From NCBI GenBank assembly GCA_022821545.1, contig JAJEDJ010000053.1, forward strand, positions 1 to 64,000: DNA of 64,000 nt, read 5' to 3'. This DNA is from Caldilineaceae bacterium (GTDB lineage Bacteria > Chloroflexota > Anaerolineae > Caldilineales > Caldilineaceae). Every line of letters begins with the position of its first letter. Positions within the stretch are counted from its first letter, which is position 1. Under the pieces are notes generated by a model that saw only the letters and a list, made by a program, of their open reading frames with translations, did no database searches and was not told where the DNA came from. A program made the position numbers and the translations under genes. This document shows, one piece after another, positions 3,995-23,388 of this stretch.

Positions 3995-5860
3995 ATGTCT
4001 AAAGAACTCATCGCTGGGATCAATCAGGTTGCATCTGATAAAGACCTCGATAATGAGGTAATTTTTGACGCAATCGAGGCCGCGCTTATCTCCGCCTACA
4101 AGCGCAATTACGGCTCTGTTGCCAATGTCACTGCCGCGGTCGACCGGGCGACGGGCGAGATGAGAGTTTTCGCTGAGAAAGAGGTGGTCGAAGATATCCT
4201 CAACCCGAATACCGAGATTCTATTGGACGATGCCAGAACCGTGGAGCCGTCTTCTGAACTGGGCGATGTCGTACTAGTGCAAAATACGCCCGGCAACTTC
4301 GGCCGTATCGCCGCCCAGACTGCCAAACAGGTGATCTTACAGCGCATTCGCGAGGCTGAAAGAGATACAGTCTACGAGAATTTCGTTCACAAAGTCGGTG
4401 AGACGATCACCGCCCAGGTCCGCAGCGTTGATCTCGTGTCCGGAGCCGTCACCATTCTTATCGACGACAGGCACGAGAACCTCTTGCCTCGGGAGGAGCA
4501 GATCCCGTCGGAAAACCTGCGCCGGGGAGACTATATCTGCCTGTATGTTGTTGACGTGCATCGCAGCAGTCGCGGCCCGATGATCAAGCTGAGTCGTACC
4601 CATCGCGATCTCCTCCGCCGCCTGATGGAACAGGAGATCCCGGAGGTGCGTGATGGTACGGTCGAAATCAAGGCCATATCCCGCGAACCGGGTGCACGCA
4701 GCAAAGTGGCCGTGATGGCAACGCTGCCCGGCGTGGATCCGGTGGGCAGCTGTGTGGGAATGCGCGGTTTGCGTATCCAGAATATCGTGACCGAGTTGGC
4801 GGGCGAGAAAATCGATGTCGTCGAGTGGAGCGGCAATCTGCGTGCCTACATCTCCAATGCCCTCGGGCCGGCCAAAGTGCAGAGCGTAATCCTCGAAGAA
4901 GACAGCAACATCAAGACCGCTATCGTCATCGTGCCGGATCGACAGCTCAGCCTCGCCATCGGCAAAGCAGGCCAGAATGCCCGTTTGGCAGCCAAACTGA
5001 CGGGATGGCGGATCGACATCAAGAGCGAGACCGAAGCCCATGCCGAAGGACTGGACCTGCTGGCAGCAGAGCAGGCACAGATGGCCGCCGGTGAACAAGA
5101 CCTGCTCAGCATGGCGGAGCAGATCCTGCGCGACAAAGATGAATCTGCATCAAGCGAAGATACCTTCCGCCAGGCCGCAGAGCTGCTGCAAAGACGGGAT
5201 GCCGCGAGCAGGTCGGTCGCCCCAAGCACCGCCGCCGAGTGGCCCGATTCGCTCCCCGCGCAAGATGAAGGACGCGGCCTTGGCGTCGATGCAGAGGAGG
5301 CCTTGAGCGCTTTTGAACGCGCCGCCGCAGCCGTCCAGGAAGAAGATCCCTCCACTCCTTCCTTCGAAGACTTCGCCGTGGAAGAGCCGGAGCCGGTCAG
5401 CTTCGGCGAAACGCTGGACGACGAGAAAGACGCGAAGGAAGAAAGCGTTGAAAGTCCCGATGCGGAAGAAGTGCGCGAACTTCCTGCCCATCATCCTTCG
5501 GAACTGCCGGCGGAAGAGGAAGTTCCCGAGCCGGAACGCACTCTCAGACCTGAAGACCTGCCCCAGGTTATTACCGCTGATATGCTGCGCCAGCGTATGG
5601 CCGCACGCCAGCAGGGGACCTCGTCGGGCCCTGTCATCAGTTCGCTGGACGATCTGGAAGTTCCCCCCGAACTGCTCGATTCGCTGGACACGGTCGAAAA
5701 GCCCAGTGATGAGCTTGACGAGCAGGAACCCGGACGCAATAGGGCCCGCCGCGGCGGCCAGGCAACGCCGAAGAGGCAGCCAAGGCGCCAGAGAACGCGT
5801 CGGGCACGGGGGCTCGAAGTCGACTTGGAAGAGTTCGACGGCGATGAGTTTGACCTGTAA
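3995..5860 (+). CDS. nusA: Transcription termination/antitermination protein NusA
   Basis: RNA-polymerase-binding factor acting in pausing, intrinsic termination and antitermination. The NusA N-terminal domain spans about residues 1-130. An S1 domain spans about 135-205, KH1 about 235-300 (VGMRGLRIQ at 254-262) and KH2 about 305-345 ([12 protein letters not shown] from 321). The core therefore ends near residue 350. The remaining 270 residues are a low-complexity, strongly acidic tail that ends with a basic patch and an acidic terminus. It shows no match to the AR repeats of Escherichia coli NusA that I can recognise. First gene of the nusA-rnpM-infB-rbfA block; no rimP precedes it. Confidence 0.95.
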
Positions 5861-16017: not shown

Positions 16018-18729
16018 TCATTCGTAGTGGATTTCGCTCGCCCCGTTTCGCTTCTCTACCCGGATCAGCTTCTCCGTAGCCTGTTCGAACGAATCGTCGT
16101 GGCTGATGATAAAGAGTTGCTCAAAGCCGCGCACGCCCACTATCTGCCGCGCCAGTGAGCCGCGGCGGGTATCGTCCAGATTTGTGGTCGGCTCGTCGAA
16201 GAAGGCGACGCCGATACTGCTCATCTCCTGGAGCAGGGACAACCGTACCGCCAGCGCTGCGCTCATCTGCTCGCCCCCGGACAGTTGGGAAAACGTCCGC
16301 TCGCGGCCGTCCGCCTCCAGAATGATGCCATAGTCCTCTTTCCAATGGAGCGTGCGCGTGTAGTCTTCCATAATCTGGCCGAACAGTTGATTGGCATTGT
16401 AACTGATCTGCTGGACCAGGGCATTGGTTATGAATGGGCCGGCCTCCTGTATTACGGAGCGCAGAAACTGCAGAAGCTCCTCTTGTTCCGCCAGCCGGTC
16501 GCGCCGGGATTGGGCGCTGGTGAGCCGCTTCTCCAGCGTCTGAAGTTGCGCGACTTCTTCCTCCGCCCGAAAAAGGCGTTCACGCCACTGGCCCAAATCA
16601 GCCTCCAGCCGCGCACTGCGCCCGCGGAACTCGTCTACCTGTGCCTCCGTCTCCTGGTAGCGCTCTTCGTCGAATTCGCGACGAATGGCCGCCAGCTGTT
16701 CCTGCCCATCCTCGTAGAGTTTTTGCGCGTCCTCCAACGCCTTTTTCGCCTCGGTAACCTCCTGCAGGCGCTGAGGGAGCGCTTCGGCTGCGGCCTGATT
16801 GCGCCGGTAGAGATCGTGGGCGGTCTGGAACTTCTCCAACTGAGAGGAGATCCGGGCGGTCTCAGCATCCAGGTCGGCAAATCCTGCGATACGCTCGTCA
16901 AGCTCCGCGAGCGCGTTTCGTCTCTGCTCAGCCTGCGCCCGCTGCAGCTGCAAAGCCTCTTCTACCCGTCCCCGCCCCCGTGCCTGTTCGAGAGCCGCAT
17001 CCCGCCGTCGACGCGGGTCGCCCAGCGCCTTCAATGCCTCCTGCAGCTGTCCCAAACGTTGCGGCGCCTGTCTTAGCAACTCAACCGTTTCGCTGGCTTC
17101 GGTCAGCTGGGTCTTCAACGCGGCCAACTCTCTTTCGGCTGTTTCGACCGCAGCCTGACGCGGGAGAGAGCGCAGCGTCTGCACCCGCTCATTGAGGGTA
17201 GCGCGGGCCTGAACACGCGCCTCTTCTGCCTCGCGGATCGCCTTCGCGGCGGCCTTTGACGCTATGTTCAATTCCGTCCAGCGCACACGGAGGCGTTCGA
17301 TCAGCCTCTGACGATCGTCCGCAGACAGGGGCTGCTCACAGATGGGACAGATTGGGGATGTTTCCGACGCCCGCAACTGCTGGCCCTGCTCCTGTATCGT
17401 CTCCTGTTCCGCGTGCATTCGGGCCTCAATGGCCTGTTCGGCGGATTTCGTCTGCTGCAAAGTATCCAGATGAGCTTGCAGGGGCTCCAGGGATGCTTCA
17501 ATCTCCTGGGCCCGGGCCAACTCTTTGCGTAGGGCGCCCAGCCGCGCCTGCGCCGCTTCGACAGCCGTATGTTCCCGCTGCACCCGGGCGCCGGCATCTT
17601 TCAACTGATCGGCCTGCCGTTGGGCATCCCGCAGTTCGGCTTCCAACTTTCCCTGCCCGGCTGCCGCGTCGGCCAGGTTCGCCGCCGTTTTCTCTGCTTC
17701 CGCAATCTCAACCAGGGCGCGCCCCTGGGCATCCGCCTGCGTTTCCGCCCGCGCCAGTAGCGTCTGGACGCCGGCCCGCTCCCCCTCCAACAGCCGCCGC
17801 TGCGTCAACCGTTCATTCACAGCGCCTTGAGCCTTCTGCGCGGCGCGATAAGCTTCATGGTCTGTCCGGTTGGCTTCCAAGGTTGTCACCGCCCGCTCGC
17901 TCTCCGTCAAAATTTGCCGGGCCGTAGCCAACGTCCGCTCCTGTTCGGCCGCCTCCCGTTCCTGCAACTGCACCATGCGCCGCAACTCCTGCAGCCGTTC
18001 CCGTTTCACCTGCATCGCCTTCCGGGCGGATTCGGCTGCAGTTAGCTCCGCCTGCGCGGCGCGCAGTTCGGTCTCCCCGCTTCTGATCCGGGCGGTCATT
18101 TCGCCTGCTTCGGCCCGCACGGCTGGCAGCCGCTTCAACTTACCCTCCAGCCCGCCGACTTCAACGGCAAGAGTTTCCTGGCGCTGGTTGAGCAAGCTGA
18201 GGGGCTCGCGCAGTCTCTCAAACGCCCGGCGGTATTCAGCCACCTTCAGAAGTGGATCGAAAACGGCCTTGCGAATCCTGGGCGTCTCCAGAAAGGCGAC
18301 GGTGAAGCTGCCCTGGGGCACGCCCACGGCGTTTCTGAACAGCTCCTCCGGCGCAGAGTCTTCGCCGATGCCGAGATGAAGGCGCAGGAACTGCATGACA
18401 TCGGCTTTGCCCTCGCAAATTTTTATAGAGAGTTCAGGGTCGAAGACGGTGTAATCGCTGCTGCCGCCACAGCGCCGTATCACCTGATAGATACGCTCGT
18501 CATGGTCGCTGAGAAAAGTGACCGTTACACGGGCCGATCTCTGACCTGCACGCACGAAGTCGGCTTGGCTATAGGGCAGGTGATCGAAGAGAGCAAAGCC
18601 GATGGCTTCAAGGATCGTCGTCTTGCCCGATCCGTTGTCGCCAACGATTGCATTTGTGCCGGGGCTGAATTCGACCGTTGCCCGTGCGTAACTCTTGACG
18701 TTTTCCAGGGTCAGCGAACGGATCAACAT
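16018..18729 (-). CDS. sbcC: DNA repair exonuclease SbcC (Rad50-like ATPase)
   Basis: SMC-like ATPase subunit of the SbcCD complex, which opens hairpins and processes DNA ends. Walker A is GDNGSGKTT at 30-38. Long coiled coils rich in Glu, Gln, Ala and Arg surround a zinc-hook CPIC near residue 460. The C-terminal lobe carries the ABC signature LSGGEQMSAALAVRL and Walker B VAFFDEPTTNLD. At 903 aa it is a usual Rad50/SbcC size. The start overlaps the sbcD stop by a few bases (ATG inside the end of sbcD), so translation is coupled. It is the last gene of the hrcA-led run. Confidence 0.95.
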   Translation of the reverse strand: MLIRSLTLENVKSYARATVEFSPGTNAIVGDNGSGKTTILEAIGFALFDHLPYSQADFVRAGQRSARVTVTFLSDHDERIYQVIRRCGGSSDYTVFDPELSIKICEGKADVMQFLRLHLGIGEDSAPEELFRNAVGVPQGSFTVAFLETPRIRKAVFDPLLKVAEYRRAFERLREPLSLLNQRQETLAVEVGGLEGKLKRLPAVRAEAGEMTARIRSGETELRAAQAELTAAESARKAMQVKRERLQELRRMVQLQEREAAEQERTLATARQILTESERAVTTLEANRTDHEAYRAAQKAQGAVNERLTQRRLLEGERAGVQTLLARAETQADAQGRALVEIAEAEKTAANLADAAAGQGKLEAELRDAQRQADQLKDAGARVQREHTAVEAAQARLGALRKELARAQEIEASLEPLQAHLDTLQQTKSAEQAIEARMHAEQETIQEQGQQLRASETSPICPICEQPLSADDRQRLIERLRVRWTELNIASKAAAKAIREAEEARVQARATLNERVQTLRSLPRQAAVETAERELAALKTQLTEASETVELLRQAPQRLGQLQEALKALGDPRRRRDAALEQARGRGRVEEALQLQRAQAEQRRNALAELDERIAGFADLDAETARISSQLEKFQTAHDLYRRNQAAAEALPQRLQEVTEAKKALEDAQKLYEDGQEQLAAIRREFDEERYQETEAQVDEFRGRSARLEADLGQWRERLFRAEEEVAQLQTLEKRLTSAQSRRDRLAEQEELLQFLRSVIQEAGPFITNALVQQISYNANQLFGQIMEDYTRTLHWKEDYGIILEADGRERTFSQLSGGEQMSAALAVRLSLLQEMSSIGVAFFDEPTTNLDDTRRGSLARQIVGVRGFEQLFIISHDDSFEQATEKLIRVEKRNGASEIHYE

Positions 18730-19997
18730 GGCGTCTTTTCTTCCTGCAAAATCCTCTCCTCGCCCCTTGCCAGCTCCTCCAGAATCGCACCGGCAGAAGC
18801 GCCGTTGACGGCCAGCTGTTTGATGGAGAGCGTGAGTTCAGTCCAAGCGCTGCTGCGGTCGCGGAAACGGTTGTCACGTTCGAGCAGAGAGGCAATGATC
18901 TGCCGCTCCAGCTCCCGCCGGCCGAGATGTTGATCGGTTCCCACTGCAAACTCCGAGGCTCGCGTATCATCGCGTACAAAGCAGAGCAACGGCTGGTACT
19001 GCTCTTCAACGATCTGCTCAAGGAGTTTCAAGTCCAGCGCGCCGCGGTCGAAAGGGAGCACGCCGTTCAGCCGCAGCTCGACCACCGGCTCTTTGCCCCT
19101 GAACTGACGGCGCTGGCGCTCGATGTGGCCCCGGCACGATTCGACCAGGTCAGCCGGCGTCTCACAGGCGTCGACCTTGAAGAAGAGGCGTTCAAAAGGA
19201 CGCCGCGGATTCGCGTGCAAGGCTGGGCGGTGCTTCGGCTCCCCGTCAGTATCCACCTCCACAAGATAGTATCCCCGCTCCGGCCAGGCCGCCTCGGTTA
19301 GAGAATTTGTTTCCGGGCTGCCGGGATTGTAGATCCAGTCGTCGAACTCGAAGGGTTTGTGGAAGTGGCCCAGCGCCAGATAGTCCACGTGGGGCCGCAG
19401 CGGGGCCAGCTCGCGGTGGCTCAGAGTGCCGCCCTGGTGGTCGAGAACTTTCTCAACACCGGCGTGCGCCATGAATATCGTGTATTCGACCCCCTGCCTG
19501 TCGGCTGCCGCCAGCGCTTCGGCTACCCGTTCCACGACCGGCGCCGCGGCACTTCCGTAATAGCGCATGCCATAGACCCGCAGGCCCGGGACCGGTTCCG
19601 CATAAGCCCCTCTGTGTCCGTCGTAGGGCAGGAGTTCGGCCTTTTCCCCTTCAATCCGTGGGTTGAGCAGCGTCAGCAGTTCGCGTTCGGCCAGGAAGCG
19701 CATCCAGCCGATGCTGTCGCGATAGTAGGCCAGTTCATGGTTTCCCTCCACCGCCAGGCAAGGGATGCCCGCCTCTTTCAGCCGTTCCAGCCCGGTGATG
19801 GCATGACTGAGGGTAATCGGGTCGATGGCGCGTCTTTCAAAGAGATCACCGGCCAGCAGGACGAAATCGACTTTGCGGGCGATGGCTGCCCGGATGATGT
19901 CGAGATAGGCGCGGGTGAAGTCGTTCTGCCGCTCCCGGCTGTTGTACTGCCGATAGCCGAGATGGCAGTCGGCCATGTGGAGAAAGGTCGCGCGCAT
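18723..19997 (-). CDS. sbcD: DNA repair exonuclease SbcD (Mre11-like nuclease)
   Basis: Metallophosphoesterase subunit of SbcCD. All metal-binding motifs are present in order: HMADCHLGYRQ (Asp and His), LLAGDLFE, VEGNHELAYY, MAHAG and LGHFHKPFE. The remaining C-terminal part is the capping and SbcC-binding region. Length 424 aa is normal. It lies 84 bp after the YvlD-like gene and overlaps sbcC by 7 bp. Confidence 0.95.
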   Translation of the reverse strand: MRATFLHMADCHLGYRQYNSRERQNDFTRAYLDIIRAAIARKVDFVLLAGDLFERRAIDPITLSHAITGLERLKEAGIPCLAVEGNHELAYYRDSIGWMRFLAERELLTLLNPRIEGEKAELLPYDGHRGAYAEPVPGLRVYGMRYYGSAAAPVVERVAEALAAADRQGVEYTIFMAHAGVEKVLDHQGGTLSHRELAPLRPHVDYLALGHFHKPFEFDDWIYNPGSPETNSLTEAAWPERGYYLVEVDTDGEPKHRPALHANPRRPFERLFFKVDACETPADLVESCRGHIERQRRQFRGKEPVVELRLNGVLPFDRGALDLKLLEQIVEEQYQPLLCFVRDDTRASEFAVGTDQHLGRRELERQIIASLLERDNRFRDRSSAWTELTLSIKQLAVNGASAGAILEELARGEERILQEEKTPC

Positions 19998-20081
19998 GAT
20001 GTGCCCCAGCGGAAACTTGAACTGTAGTTTGGTGAGGAGTTCGGCTGCAGGTCACCGCGCGGCGGCACAGGTGAACCGCGG

Positions 20082-20465
20082 TCAATCCTTGTCGTCTTTC
20101 TCAGCGGAGATAAACAGACTGAGGAGAAAGCTGACGAAGCTGATGACGATGGCGCCCCAAAATGCGGACCCAAAGCCGTCTACTTGAAAGTCGACGTTGA
20201 GCAGACCGGCCAGCCAGCCGGTCAGAAGAAGCATCAAGGCGTTGACGACAAAGGTGAACAGGCCGAGCGTGACCAGAAAGGCCGGGCAGGTCACCACTTT
20301 GACAAGCGGTTTGATAATCGCGTTGATAACGCCAAAGATCAGGGTGACCGCCAGCAGGCTGCCGAAATCAACCTCGCCGCCCGCGCCGAACTGAATGCCG
20401 TCAATCAGTGTTGACGCCACATAGAGAGCGATGGCGTTCCCGACCAGCCGTAGCAGAAGAGTCAT
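20082..20465 (-). CDS. YvlD / phage holin 4-like membrane protein
   Basis: A 127-residue integral membrane protein with four hydrophobic helices. It matches the Phage_holin_4 superfamily 2 (YvlD) pattern: NAIALYVASTLIDGIQF, LIFGVINAIIKPLVKV and TLGLFTFVVNALMLLLTGWLAG. Members occur widely in bacterial chromosomes and are not evidence for a prophage; in Bacillus yvlD belongs to an envelope-stress operon. It is 6 bp after the GNAT gene, which suggests translational coupling. A short charged tail ends the protein. Confidence 0.85.
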   Translation of the reverse strand: MTLLLRLVGNAIALYVASTLIDGIQFGAGGEVDFGSLLAVTLIFGVINAIIKPLVKVVTCPAFLVTLGLFTFVVNALMLLLTGWLAGLLNVDFQVDGFGSAFWGAIVISFVSFLLSLFISAEKDDKD

Positions 20466-20471
20466 AGGGGT

Positions 20472-21485
20472 CTACATACGCAGGCGCATCGTACACAAAG
20501 TGCTGCGCACGGCAAAGCCGTGTTCAAGCAGCGTCTGCGCCGCGATTTTGTCCTGTGTGCTCACAGTGGCCCGCAGCGGCCAGCGGGGGCACTCCTGCAA
20601 AAGGGCCAGCGCGCTCAAGACCAACGGCTGGGCATACTGTTCCTGGGCGTCGGGGCGCAGCCAGAGACGTATATGATGCTCGCCCTGCCACCACCGGGCG
20701 GTCACCTGAATTGCGCCTTCAAAGCGGCTGCCGTAGTCGCGGATGGCGTAGCGGTAAATCCGCTGGCGCCCGGCGAGCCTGTTCACCAGTTCACCAATGC
20801 GCTTTTCGAGCGTGACCTGGAAGTCCTCTCGCCGAACGGCCCGCCACCACTGGAATTCGGCGTTGGGCCGGCTGGTGGCCAAATCATACAGCAGATTACT
20901 GTCGGATGGAGAGAACTCCTGCAGGTTGGACAGAACCGGAATTGCGATCCGCCGCGGCGCGCGCGGGGCGTAAAGTTCGGACGTTCCTCCCATGTTTTCA
21001 AAGCGGAGCCGTTCATAGAGGCCGCGAGCGATTTCGTTTTCCCCGCGTACCTGCAGCACAGCCCAGGACCCGCCCATCTCGCGGATGTAGTCCAGAGCAT
21101 GTTCCATGAGCGCGCGGCTGATCCCGCGCCCGCGCCAGGCCGGGGAGACGGCCACATTTGCGATTCGCCAGCGCCCGCTGCCACTGGCGGCCCGCTGTAC
21201 GGTTACATTTCCCACCACCCGCTTGTTCTCTACCCAGACGAAACCGCTGAAGACATTCCGAAACTCGCCGGTACTGCGGTAGAGAATGCGCACCAGCCCG
21301 CTCATATAGCCGAGAATTCGCAACTCGCGCAGCGCAGCCTCGCCCTGTTCGTCGAGTTCTTCGGCGAAGGCCTCGGTTATCAACCGGGAAACGGCGCGCA
21401 GATCGCGCCCTACGTCAAAGGGGCGGATGCCCTGCCGGGGATCTTGAGGATGGCTGGCGGCGGCGGAGCGAGTCAGGGCAACCAT
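20472..21485 (-). CDS. GNAT-family N-acetyltransferase
   Basis: A 337-residue protein whose N-terminal half is a GNAT domain: VAVSPAWRGRGISRALMEHA matches the acetyl-CoA-binding motif A (R/Q-x-x-G-x-A). VLQVRGENEIARGLYERLRFE matches motif B. The C-terminal half (about residues 195-337) may be a second degenerate GNAT fold (ALALLQECPRWPLRATV). Substrate unknown. It follows grpE by 29 bp on the same strand and so lies in the heat-shock run, an uncommon neighbour. Confidence 0.82.
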   Translation of the reverse strand: MVALTRSAAASHPQDPRQGIRPFDVGRDLRAVSRLITEAFAEELDEQGEAALRELRILGYMSGLVRILYRSTGEFRNVFSGFVWVENKRVVGNVTVQRAASGSGRWRIANVAVSPAWRGRGISRALMEHALDYIREMGGSWAVLQVRGENEIARGLYERLRFENMGGTSELYAPRAPRRIAIPVLSNLQEFSPSDSNLLYDLATSRPNAEFQWWRAVRREDFQVTLEKRIGELVNRLAGRQRIYRYAIRDYGSRFEGAIQVTARWWQGEHHIRLWLRPDAQEQYAQPLVLSALALLQECPRWPLRATVSTQDKIAAQTLLEHGFAVRSTLCTMRLRM

Positions 21486-21514
21486 TTAGAGGAGGTAGGA
21501 AAGCGTCCAGCTAT

Positions 21515-22132
21515 TCACTGCGCTACCCGGACAAGCGCCGGGCGCAGGATCCGGTCCTGGATGCGGTAGCCGGTGCGTAATGTCTGGATGATGTGGCCGC
21601 TGGGAACATCTTCGTTCGGCTCATTCGAGATGGCCTCATGCTGATTCGGGTCGAATTCACCGCATCTGGCCAGCGGTTCGACATTTGCATTGGCGAGAAT
21701 GTCCAGGAGTTTCTGCTGGATCTGCTCGAATCCCTGCAGCCAGGCCTGGTCCTCTCCCCGCGCTCCTGCGGGCACGTTCTGAAAGGCCAGATCGAGGTCA
21801 TCGAGAACGGGCAGAAGCTGACGCATCATGCTGTCGGTGGCGAGTTTGATGCGGTCCTCGTTCTGGCGTTCGCGTCGTTTGCCGGCGTTCTCATATTCGG
21901 CGACGGTACGCTGCATCTTGTCGAGGTGGCTGGCAGCCTGGTCCTGGGCATCCGCCAGCTCCGATTGAAGGCGGGCGATCGTCTCTTCGGGCGTCTCGTC
22001 CCGCTCTTCAGCCTCTTCGCCGTCCGATACGGCGTTTGCGTCGGGTTCACTCGGCTCCAGAACAGCTTCTTCAGGCAGCTGACCGTTTTCCGGCTCTCCC
22101 GTTGTGTTTTCCCGTTTTTCCTGTTTGCTCAT
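21515..22132 (-). CDS. grpE: Nucleotide exchange factor GrpE
   Basis: Co-chaperone that releases ADP from DnaK. An acidic disordered N terminus (residues 1-55) is followed by a long helix (ETIARLQSELADAQDQ ... VAEYENAGKRRERQ), then the signature MRQLLPVLDDLDLAF. The beta-wing domain follows (FDPNQHEAISNEPNEDVPSGHIIQTLRTGYRIQDRILRPALVRV). It lies 28 bp downstream of hrcA, the normal order, but dnaK and dnaJ do not follow. Confidence 0.96.
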   Translation of the reverse strand: MSKQEKRENTTGEPENGQLPEEAVLEPSEPDANAVSDGEEAEERDETPEETIARLQSELADAQDQAASHLDKMQRTVAEYENAGKRRERQNEDRIKLATDSMMRQLLPVLDDLDLAFQNVPAGARGEDQAWLQGFEQIQQKLLDILANANVEPLARCGEFDPNQHEAISNEPNEDVPSGHIIQTLRTGYRIQDRILRPALVRVAQ

Positions 22133-22160
22133 GAATGATCCTGTTACACAAATGTGTTAT

Positions 22161-23198
22161 CTAACGGCTTTGGCCGTAGAGCTGGTGCATCAGTTCGTTC
22201 AGAAGCGTGGCGACATAGCGAACTGCCCCAACTGTGCGACCGTATGGCATCCGCATCGGGCCGACGACGCCGAGCAGGCCGCCGACACGGTCCGGCACGC
22301 CGTAGCGGCTCAGTACAAGGCTGATGTCCTGCATATCGCCAAAACGGCCCTCACCGGCGATCATCACCTGTACGTCGCTCAACTCCATCACATCATCGTA
22401 AACCTCTTGCAGCAGTGTGCGCTGTTCGAAAACCTCCACGATCCGGCTCACCTGCGGCCCATCCGTGAACTCAGGCTCGGCCAGCACCTGGGCCAGGCCG
22501 TGGCGATAGACGCGGTCGGTGATCTGCTCTTCCGACTGGAGCAAGGTGTTGAGTACAAGCTCGCCCACTTCGCGGGTGAAGCCGGTGAATTCCTCCAGCT
22601 TTTCCGGCAGGTCGGCAGCTGTAGCGCCGGACATTTCAACATTGAGCTGGTTGCTCGCCCGGCTCAGCTCCTCTTGAAAGATGGGCTGTTCCAGGGTGAT
22701 CAGCTGCTGTTTCAGCGTGCCCGTGGCCAGCACCAGCACCAGCAAGACAACGGTATCCTGAATGCCAATCAACTCGAGATGTTTGACTCTGCTTGAGATG
22801 GAACGCGGGGAAGTGGCCAGCGCCGCGCCCGTGGAGGCTTTGGCCAGGACCGCGGTGCTGAGACGCAGCCACTGATCAATCTCCCGCCGGGCTTGATGGA
22901 ACTGGTGGCGGATCATATGGCGCTCATGGGACGGCAGATCGGTGTGGGCCATGAGATTGGCCACAAAGTACCGATAACCGCCATCAGTGGGAATGCGGCC
23001 GGCGCTGGTGTGTGGGTGGGTCAGCAGGCCAGCCTTTTCCAGGGCAGCCAAATCATTGCGGATGGTCGCTGCGCTGACACCCAGATCGTACTTCTGCGCG
23101 ATCGACTGGCTGCCCACCGGTTGGGCATTTTCCACATATTCCTGGATGACGATTCGCAGCACCTGTTTACGGCGCTGGCTCAACTGCAATTCGGTCAT
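22161..23198 (-). CDS. hrcA: Heat-inducible transcription repressor HrcA
   Basis: Repressor of class I heat-shock genes; it binds the CIRCE operator. The N-terminal winged helix is clear (LSQRRKQVLRIVIQEYVENAQPVGSQSIA then LGVSAATIRNDLAALEKAGLL.HPHTSAGRIPTDGGYRYFV). The rest is the GAF-like and dimerisation region. I chose the ATG at 23198 (MTELQLSQRR), where family proteins begin; an open frame extends 34 residues upstream with no family similarity. Its own CIRCE at 23322-23348 predicts autoregulation. Confidence 0.95.
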   Translation of the reverse strand: MTELQLSQRRKQVLRIVIQEYVENAQPVGSQSIAQKYDLGVSAATIRNDLAALEKAGLLTHPHTSAGRIPTDGGYRYFVANLMAHTDLPSHERHMIRHQFHQARREIDQWLRLSTAVLAKASTGAALATSPRSISSRVKHLELIGIQDTVVLLVLVLATGTLKQQLITLEQPIFQEELSRASNQLNVEMSGATAADLPEKLEEFTGFTREVGELVLNTLLQSEEQITDRVYRHGLAQVLAEPEFTDGPQVSRIVEVFEQRTLLQEVYDDVMELSDVQVMIAGEGRFGDMQDISLVLSRYGVPDRVGGLLGVVGPMRMPYGRTVGAVRYVATLLNELMHQLYGQSR

Positions 23199-23321
23199 GA
23201 ATTCGTGGCAGATAGGATTGCCGCCTGTCTGCCTTCCATCCAGCGCGCTGAGAATGCGGCCGACGGAGGGCAAGTCGAACTGTAAAACAGTTGGCAGCAA
23301 TCAGACGTTTCAGAGTTGCCT

Positions 23322-23348
23322 TTAGCGCTATAGTGATGGGAGTGCCAA
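23322..23348 (-). promoter_or_regulatory. CIRCE operator (HrcA binding site)
   Basis: The inverted repeat TTAGCGCTA-N9-GAGTGCCAA matches the CIRCE consensus TTAGCACTC-N9-GAGTGCTAA at 15 of 18 arm positions, with the exact 9-bp spacer. It lies just downstream of the promoter -10 box, on the expected start site, and 124 bp before the hrcA ATG. Confidence 0.92.
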
Positions 23349-23358
23349 TCGAGAAAGA

Positions 23359-23388
23359 AGTGTAGCAAACCGGGCAGGGGGTTGTCAA
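23359..23388 (-). promoter_or_regulatory. Promoter of the hrcA-grpE operon
   Basis: Read on the minus strand, TTGACA (23383-23388) and TACACT (23359-23364) are separated by 18 bp. Initiation would fall at about 23352-23355, at the edge of CIRCE, the normal architecture for HrcA repression. Confidence 0.85.

Follow-up and report, generated by a model that had tools for sequence, protein, structure and literature searches.

A lineage-specific variant of the HrcA/CIRCE operon in Caldilineaceae, with mre11-rad50 and without dnaK-dnaJ

The published regulons consulted for the repressor HrcA comprise mainly groESL and the hrcA-grpE-dnaK-dnaJ operon, with the addition of rpoH in one species (PMC545781; PMC3842655). 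HrcA is kept active by GroEL, and stress that occupies GroEL lifts repression (PMC3842655; PMC545781). The locus described here, from a Caldilineaceae (Chloroflexota) MAG of 4.87 Mb, shares with the HrcA/CIRCE class I operon (hrcA-grpE-dnaK-dnaJ) an HrcA equivalog encoded first in the unit, GrpE, a CIRCE just past a sigma70 promoter, and groESL as the other target, but it lacks dnaK-dnaJ; grpE is followed instead by genes for a GNAT acetyltransferase, a YvlD-type protein and Mre11-Rad50. As a lineage-specific form of the HrcA/CIRCE operon it is apparently undescribed: the open-access literature on hrcA together with sbcC, DNA repair or Chloroflexi yielded no account of this operon.

The window, that is, the whole stretch of 64,000 nucleotides that was analysed, holds a six-gene minus-strand unit, hrcA-grpE-GNAT-yvlD-mre11-rad50, which is listed below together with the elements that precede it.

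23359 to 23388, minus strand: sigma70-type promoter TTGACA-N18-TACACT with an extended -10 (TG), matching at 10 of 12 positions
23322 to 23348, minus strand: CIRCE TTGGCACTCCCATCACTATAGCGCTAA, read as TTGGCACTC-N9-TAGCGCTAA, with 3 mismatches, its first base 10 bp past the -10
23199 to 23321, minus strand: hrcA leader of 123 nt, a branched hairpin of -45.6 kcal/mol (z -2.93; folded including the start codon)
22161 to 23198, minus strand: hrcA, heat-inducible transcriptional repressor, starting at ATG 23198 (TIGR00331 305 bits, cut-off 197; PF01628)
21515 to 22132, minus strand: grpE, DnaK nucleotide exchange factor (PF01025 139.9 bits)
20472 to 21485, minus strand: GNAT acetyltransferase of 337 aa with an N-terminal GNAT domain (PF00583 54 bits)
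20082 to 20465, minus strand: YvlD-type four-TM membrane protein (PF04020, Phage_holin_4_2, 99 bits)
18723 to 19997, minus strand: mre11 (earlier label sbcD), nuclease subunit (PF00149), nearest archaeal-type Mre11
16018 to 18729, minus strand: rad50 (earlier label sbcC), ABC ATPase with a CPIC zinc hook, nearest archaeal-type Rad50

Read from hrcA to rad50, the intergenic spacings are 28, 29, 6 and 84 bp, followed by a 7-bp overlap of mre11 and rad50; the gene order and spacings given in the initial annotation are thus exact on the minus strand, and the observation itself is real and beyond chance. A TTG at 23300 was considered as the hrcA start and set aside in favor of ATG 23198, since in relatives the longer frame is broken or shifted by indels. 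The GNAT protein has a probable second GNAT-like region at 188-321 (PF13302, 30 bits). Upstream lies ept, the gene for an undecaprenyl-phosphate sugar transferase, which is co-directional and stops 15 bp short of the -35 box. Beyond rad50 comes a glycosyltransferase gene on the opposite strand, so that the unit ends with rad50.

The last two genes had been labeled SbcD and SbcC, and these names did not hold: the pair is nearer the archaeal type. Both subunits find their top sequence match in archaeal Mre11-Rad50 (Pyrococcus; PDB 1ii7 and 3qku), with Mre11 matching Pyrococcus Mre11 at 93 bits versus 32 bits for E. coli SbcD, and Rad50 matching PRK03918 at 246 bits (below the cut-off of 700) versus 64 bits for sbcc. 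The SbcCD models failed (TIGR00619 for SbcD, 40.9 versus 77.65 bits; TIGR00618 for SbcC, 63.8 versus 478.5); the archaeal equivalog models scored best and failed as well (NF041029, 101 versus 600 bits; NF003034, 246 versus 700), so that the window proteins share catalytic motifs and hook with the archaeal complex but fall far under its equivalog cut-offs. Bacterial SbcCD belongs to the same superfamily, has adjacent, overlapping genes and is likely a nuclease of the same kind, acting on DNA ends and hairpins (PMC6265447, for SbcCD), but is clearly the weaker match. The Mre11 motifs DxH, GDxF, GNHE and GHxH and the Rad50 Walker A, zinc hook, LSGGE and DEPT motifs are all present in the window proteins, PF00149 and PF13476 score above their cut-offs, and PF04423 reaches 24.2 against a cut-off of 24.3; the domains and motifs assign the predicted proteins to the Mre11-Rad50 superfamily. 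Catalytic and hook motifs are kept, with few exceptions, in the 35 Mre11 and 32 Rad50 sequences scanned, and no further Mre11/SbcD, including a second bacterial SbcD, was found in the source genome. By analogy with the family, the pair may cleave blocked or hairpin DNA ends.

The initial annotation also described a clear sigma70 promoter with CIRCE on its start site, and this description stands: TTGACA-18-TACACT is accompanied by a CIRCE with three mismatches that covers the predicted transcription start of hrcA. At its scan threshold, a generic promoter scan of 11 kb returned a single sigma70-like site on the minus strand, the hrcA promoter. Chance would provide 0.01 CIRCE matches per window at the 3-mismatch stringency; over the whole genome (4.87 Mb), sites with up to three mismatches occur in two places only, namely the hrcA operon and upstream of groES-groEL, where the CIRCE is perfect, and control matches numbered 0. 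Given that the CIRCE content of the genome is limited to groESL and this operon, control of the hrcA promoter by HrcA is likely. In the relatives, too, the second CIRCE belongs to groESL at almost all of the loci inspected. Within the genus, the hrcA promoter is nearly invariant, and promoter and CIRCE are each present in 16 of 17 genomes; mismatches to CIRCE number 0-2 in 15 relatives versus 3 in the source strain, whose site is the most degenerate among the genus members that keep it. This weak site renders the HrcA mechanism less certain here than in the relatives. The one genome G004 has lost both promoter and CIRCE and retained the operon; its locus (L036) also displays a 147-bp hrcA-grpE gap, and several of its gaps hold short repeats resembling CACTAGCCACTGCAG.

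Several observations bear on whether the six genes are transcribed together. With a promoter matrix built from 42 hrcA promoters of genomes outside the genus, the hrcA promoter scored 14.5-15.4 in 16 of the 17 genus genomes and internal sites no more than 7.4, within the range of shuffled sequence; as this matrix is biased to CIRCE-type promoters and would miss other types, the evidence is good though incomplete. Apart from the hrcA promoter, no promoter-like site above background was present on the operon strand inside the operon in the genus genomes, nor was a terminator-like structure found between genes. The operon reading of the initial annotation would have been undone by a strong internal promoter or terminator between grpE and sbcD, and neither was seen in the scan of 11 kb or with the matrix. 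What survives of that reading is a conserved operon-like unit behind the CIRCE promoter, as opposed to the hairpin-nuclease label SbcCD. One such unit is supported within the genus by these sequence features, and a single transcript from the promoter at 23388-23359 to the end of rad50 is most likely there.

Of the DnaK machine, the operon encodes GrpE; dnaK and dnaJ, whose absence had been noted initially, are indeed missing and were found together, unlinked, on another contig of the source genome. No CIRCE was detected near dnaK at the source-genome locus or at the relatives' dnaK loci checked, and an HspR HAIR site was looked for at dnaK with negative result. A conserved element (TTCAAAC..TTGCTAAT..) lies upstream of dnaK, before an AT-rich promoter (locus L117, about 4750-4830; loci L121-L123 and L134-L136), and could possibly be an unrecognised dnaK control site; the upstream region in the source genome also contains an inverted repeat, GCCCAATAC..GTATTGGGC.

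A survey of the gene order in related genomes, as the initial annotation had suggested, was conducted by reading 80 regions around hrcA, the named relatives being Caldilineaceae MAGs (Chloroflexota). The order hrcA-grpE-GNAT-(yvlD)-mre11(-rad50) is kept throughout the genus (17 of 17 genomes) and in 14 of the family's 17 genera, with Mre11 identities of 38-61% for the family genera outside the genus. Two genera, G017 and G025, carry mre11-rad50 elsewhere, the G019 region is cut by a contig end, and yvlD went undetected in several genera (G028, G031, G032 and others). Spacings within the genus are nearly fixed at 28/29/6/~84/-7, with G004 and G005 as the main exceptions; in other genera they extend to 324 bp (yvlD-mre11) and 431 bp (grpE-GNAT), and with gaps of several hundred base pairs a single transcript is not to be assumed in those genera. 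In G005 (L037), the yvlD frame is split in two and the ept frame is shortened, likely by assembly error or as pseudogenes. A second, divergent hrcA-grpE-dnaK copy stands beside the mre11-type operon in one MAG (G024:C283, L057) and was left out of the analysis as probable bin contamination.

Beyond the family, the other sampled families of the class Anaerolineae keep dnaK after hrcA-grpE in nearly all cases, and mre11-rad50 is not in the cluster. Several of these clusters share the ept-hrcA-grpE start, and some have a GNAT homologue nearby, either after dnaK (G059, G065, G075) or directly after grpE (G061). We infer from these arrangements that, in the simplest history, the ancestral cluster would have been ept-hrcA-grpE-dnaK-dnaJ-GNAT; dnaK-dnaJ would have departed from it, and in the ancestor of the family yvlD-mre11-rad50 would have been added after GNAT.

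Combined with the published behavior of HrcA, these features suggest a mechanism. The downstream cargo of the operon would have changed in Caldilineaceae, with GNAT-yvlD-mre11-rad50 in place of the usual dnaK-dnaJ, and in this genus one transcript would span all six genes from the hrcA promoter onward. Without stress, HrcA, active through free GroEL, would sit on CIRCE and hold expression low; misfolded proteins would fill GroEL, HrcA would become inactive, and groESL and the whole operon would be derepressed. GrpE and Mre11-Rad50 would then rise jointly, with the repair complex in useful extra amount under stress. We lean toward this reading, a CIRCE-controlled hrcA operon with changed cargo, one transcript and joint derepression with groESL, for which a single transcript, HrcA binding, a heat response and a useful surplus of repair complex are predicted; protein-damage stress would be expected also to raise DNA repair, although this is unproven. 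A further proposal, namely that the HrcA regulon has been rewired such that GroEL-sensed misfolding directly switches on the cell's only Mre11-Rad50 complex, with dnaK-dnaJ freed from HrcA and chaperone shortage hard-wired to DNA double-strand-break repair, is tentative and, in our estimation, possible rather than probable.

Whether HrcA holds these genes together is a separate matter, and the family at large speaks to it. CIRCE is missing near hrcA in 15 of 42 family entries, most with the gene order kept, and about nine family genera keep the order with no CIRCE found near hrcA; mapped on a tree of HrcA, the occurrence of CIRCE at hrcA requires at least five changes, and several genomes devoid of it at hrcA still carry it at groESL. 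Because the order persists in genera lacking CIRCE, it is wider than CIRCE control, and HrcA control is probably not what generally explains the linkage. The same persistence favors a passive neighborhood, in which mre11-rad50 came to lie after hrcA-grpE-GNAT when the family arose, stayed there through slow rearrangement and would respond little to heat, being served mainly by a non-consensus promoter of its own, for example in the 84-bp yvlD-mre11 gap. The wide gaps of other genera would leave room for promoters, the pairs that sit elsewhere in G017 and G025 presumably have their own, and the ept-hrcA order is conserved too, without ept belonging to the unit, which indicates that this neighborhood is slow to rearrange in general. 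Against these points stand the short, nearly fixed gaps of the genus, in which no promoter-like site rises above background, and we regard a merely passive association as rather unlikely.

Another reading retains the single transcript and leaves HrcA with barely any control over it: CIRCE, with its three mismatches, would be decaying, and the TTGACA promoter would act near-constitutively, perhaps aided by read-through from ept, as in the lineages without CIRCE. Such decay would fit the two mismatches already seen in the sister genomes G002 and G016, the absence of the site from G004 and from several other genera, and the co-directional ept gene ending so close to the -35 box; the window site nevertheless remains exceptional genome-wide, the promoter is intact, and a recognisable site persists across the genus, G004 excepted, all of which makes near-loss of control appear quite improbable. 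Should HrcA in this family indeed set the level of the double-strand-break repair nuclease, and no longer that of DnaK, the locus would illustrate how an operon rearrangement can fuse the heat-shock and DNA-repair responses. This regulatory consequence is plausible and easily testable, and the patchy loss of CIRCE over the family provides a natural comparison.

Lastly, the leader between CIRCE and hrcA has a homologous counterpart in 13 of the 17 genus genomes. Two other identities for it were dismissed: a dispersed repeat is ruled out by its single copy in the genome, and among known Rfam families BM-sr0117 alone appeared, at 24.5 bits versus a gathering score of 112, and was taken as chance. 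Its pairs covary, with 15 double-change cells versus 7.0 in shuffled alignments and none of 500 shuffles reaching the observed value, a comparison uncorrected for kinship among the genomes; the structure may serve as a transcript stabiliser or as a temperature sensor (RNA thermosensor).
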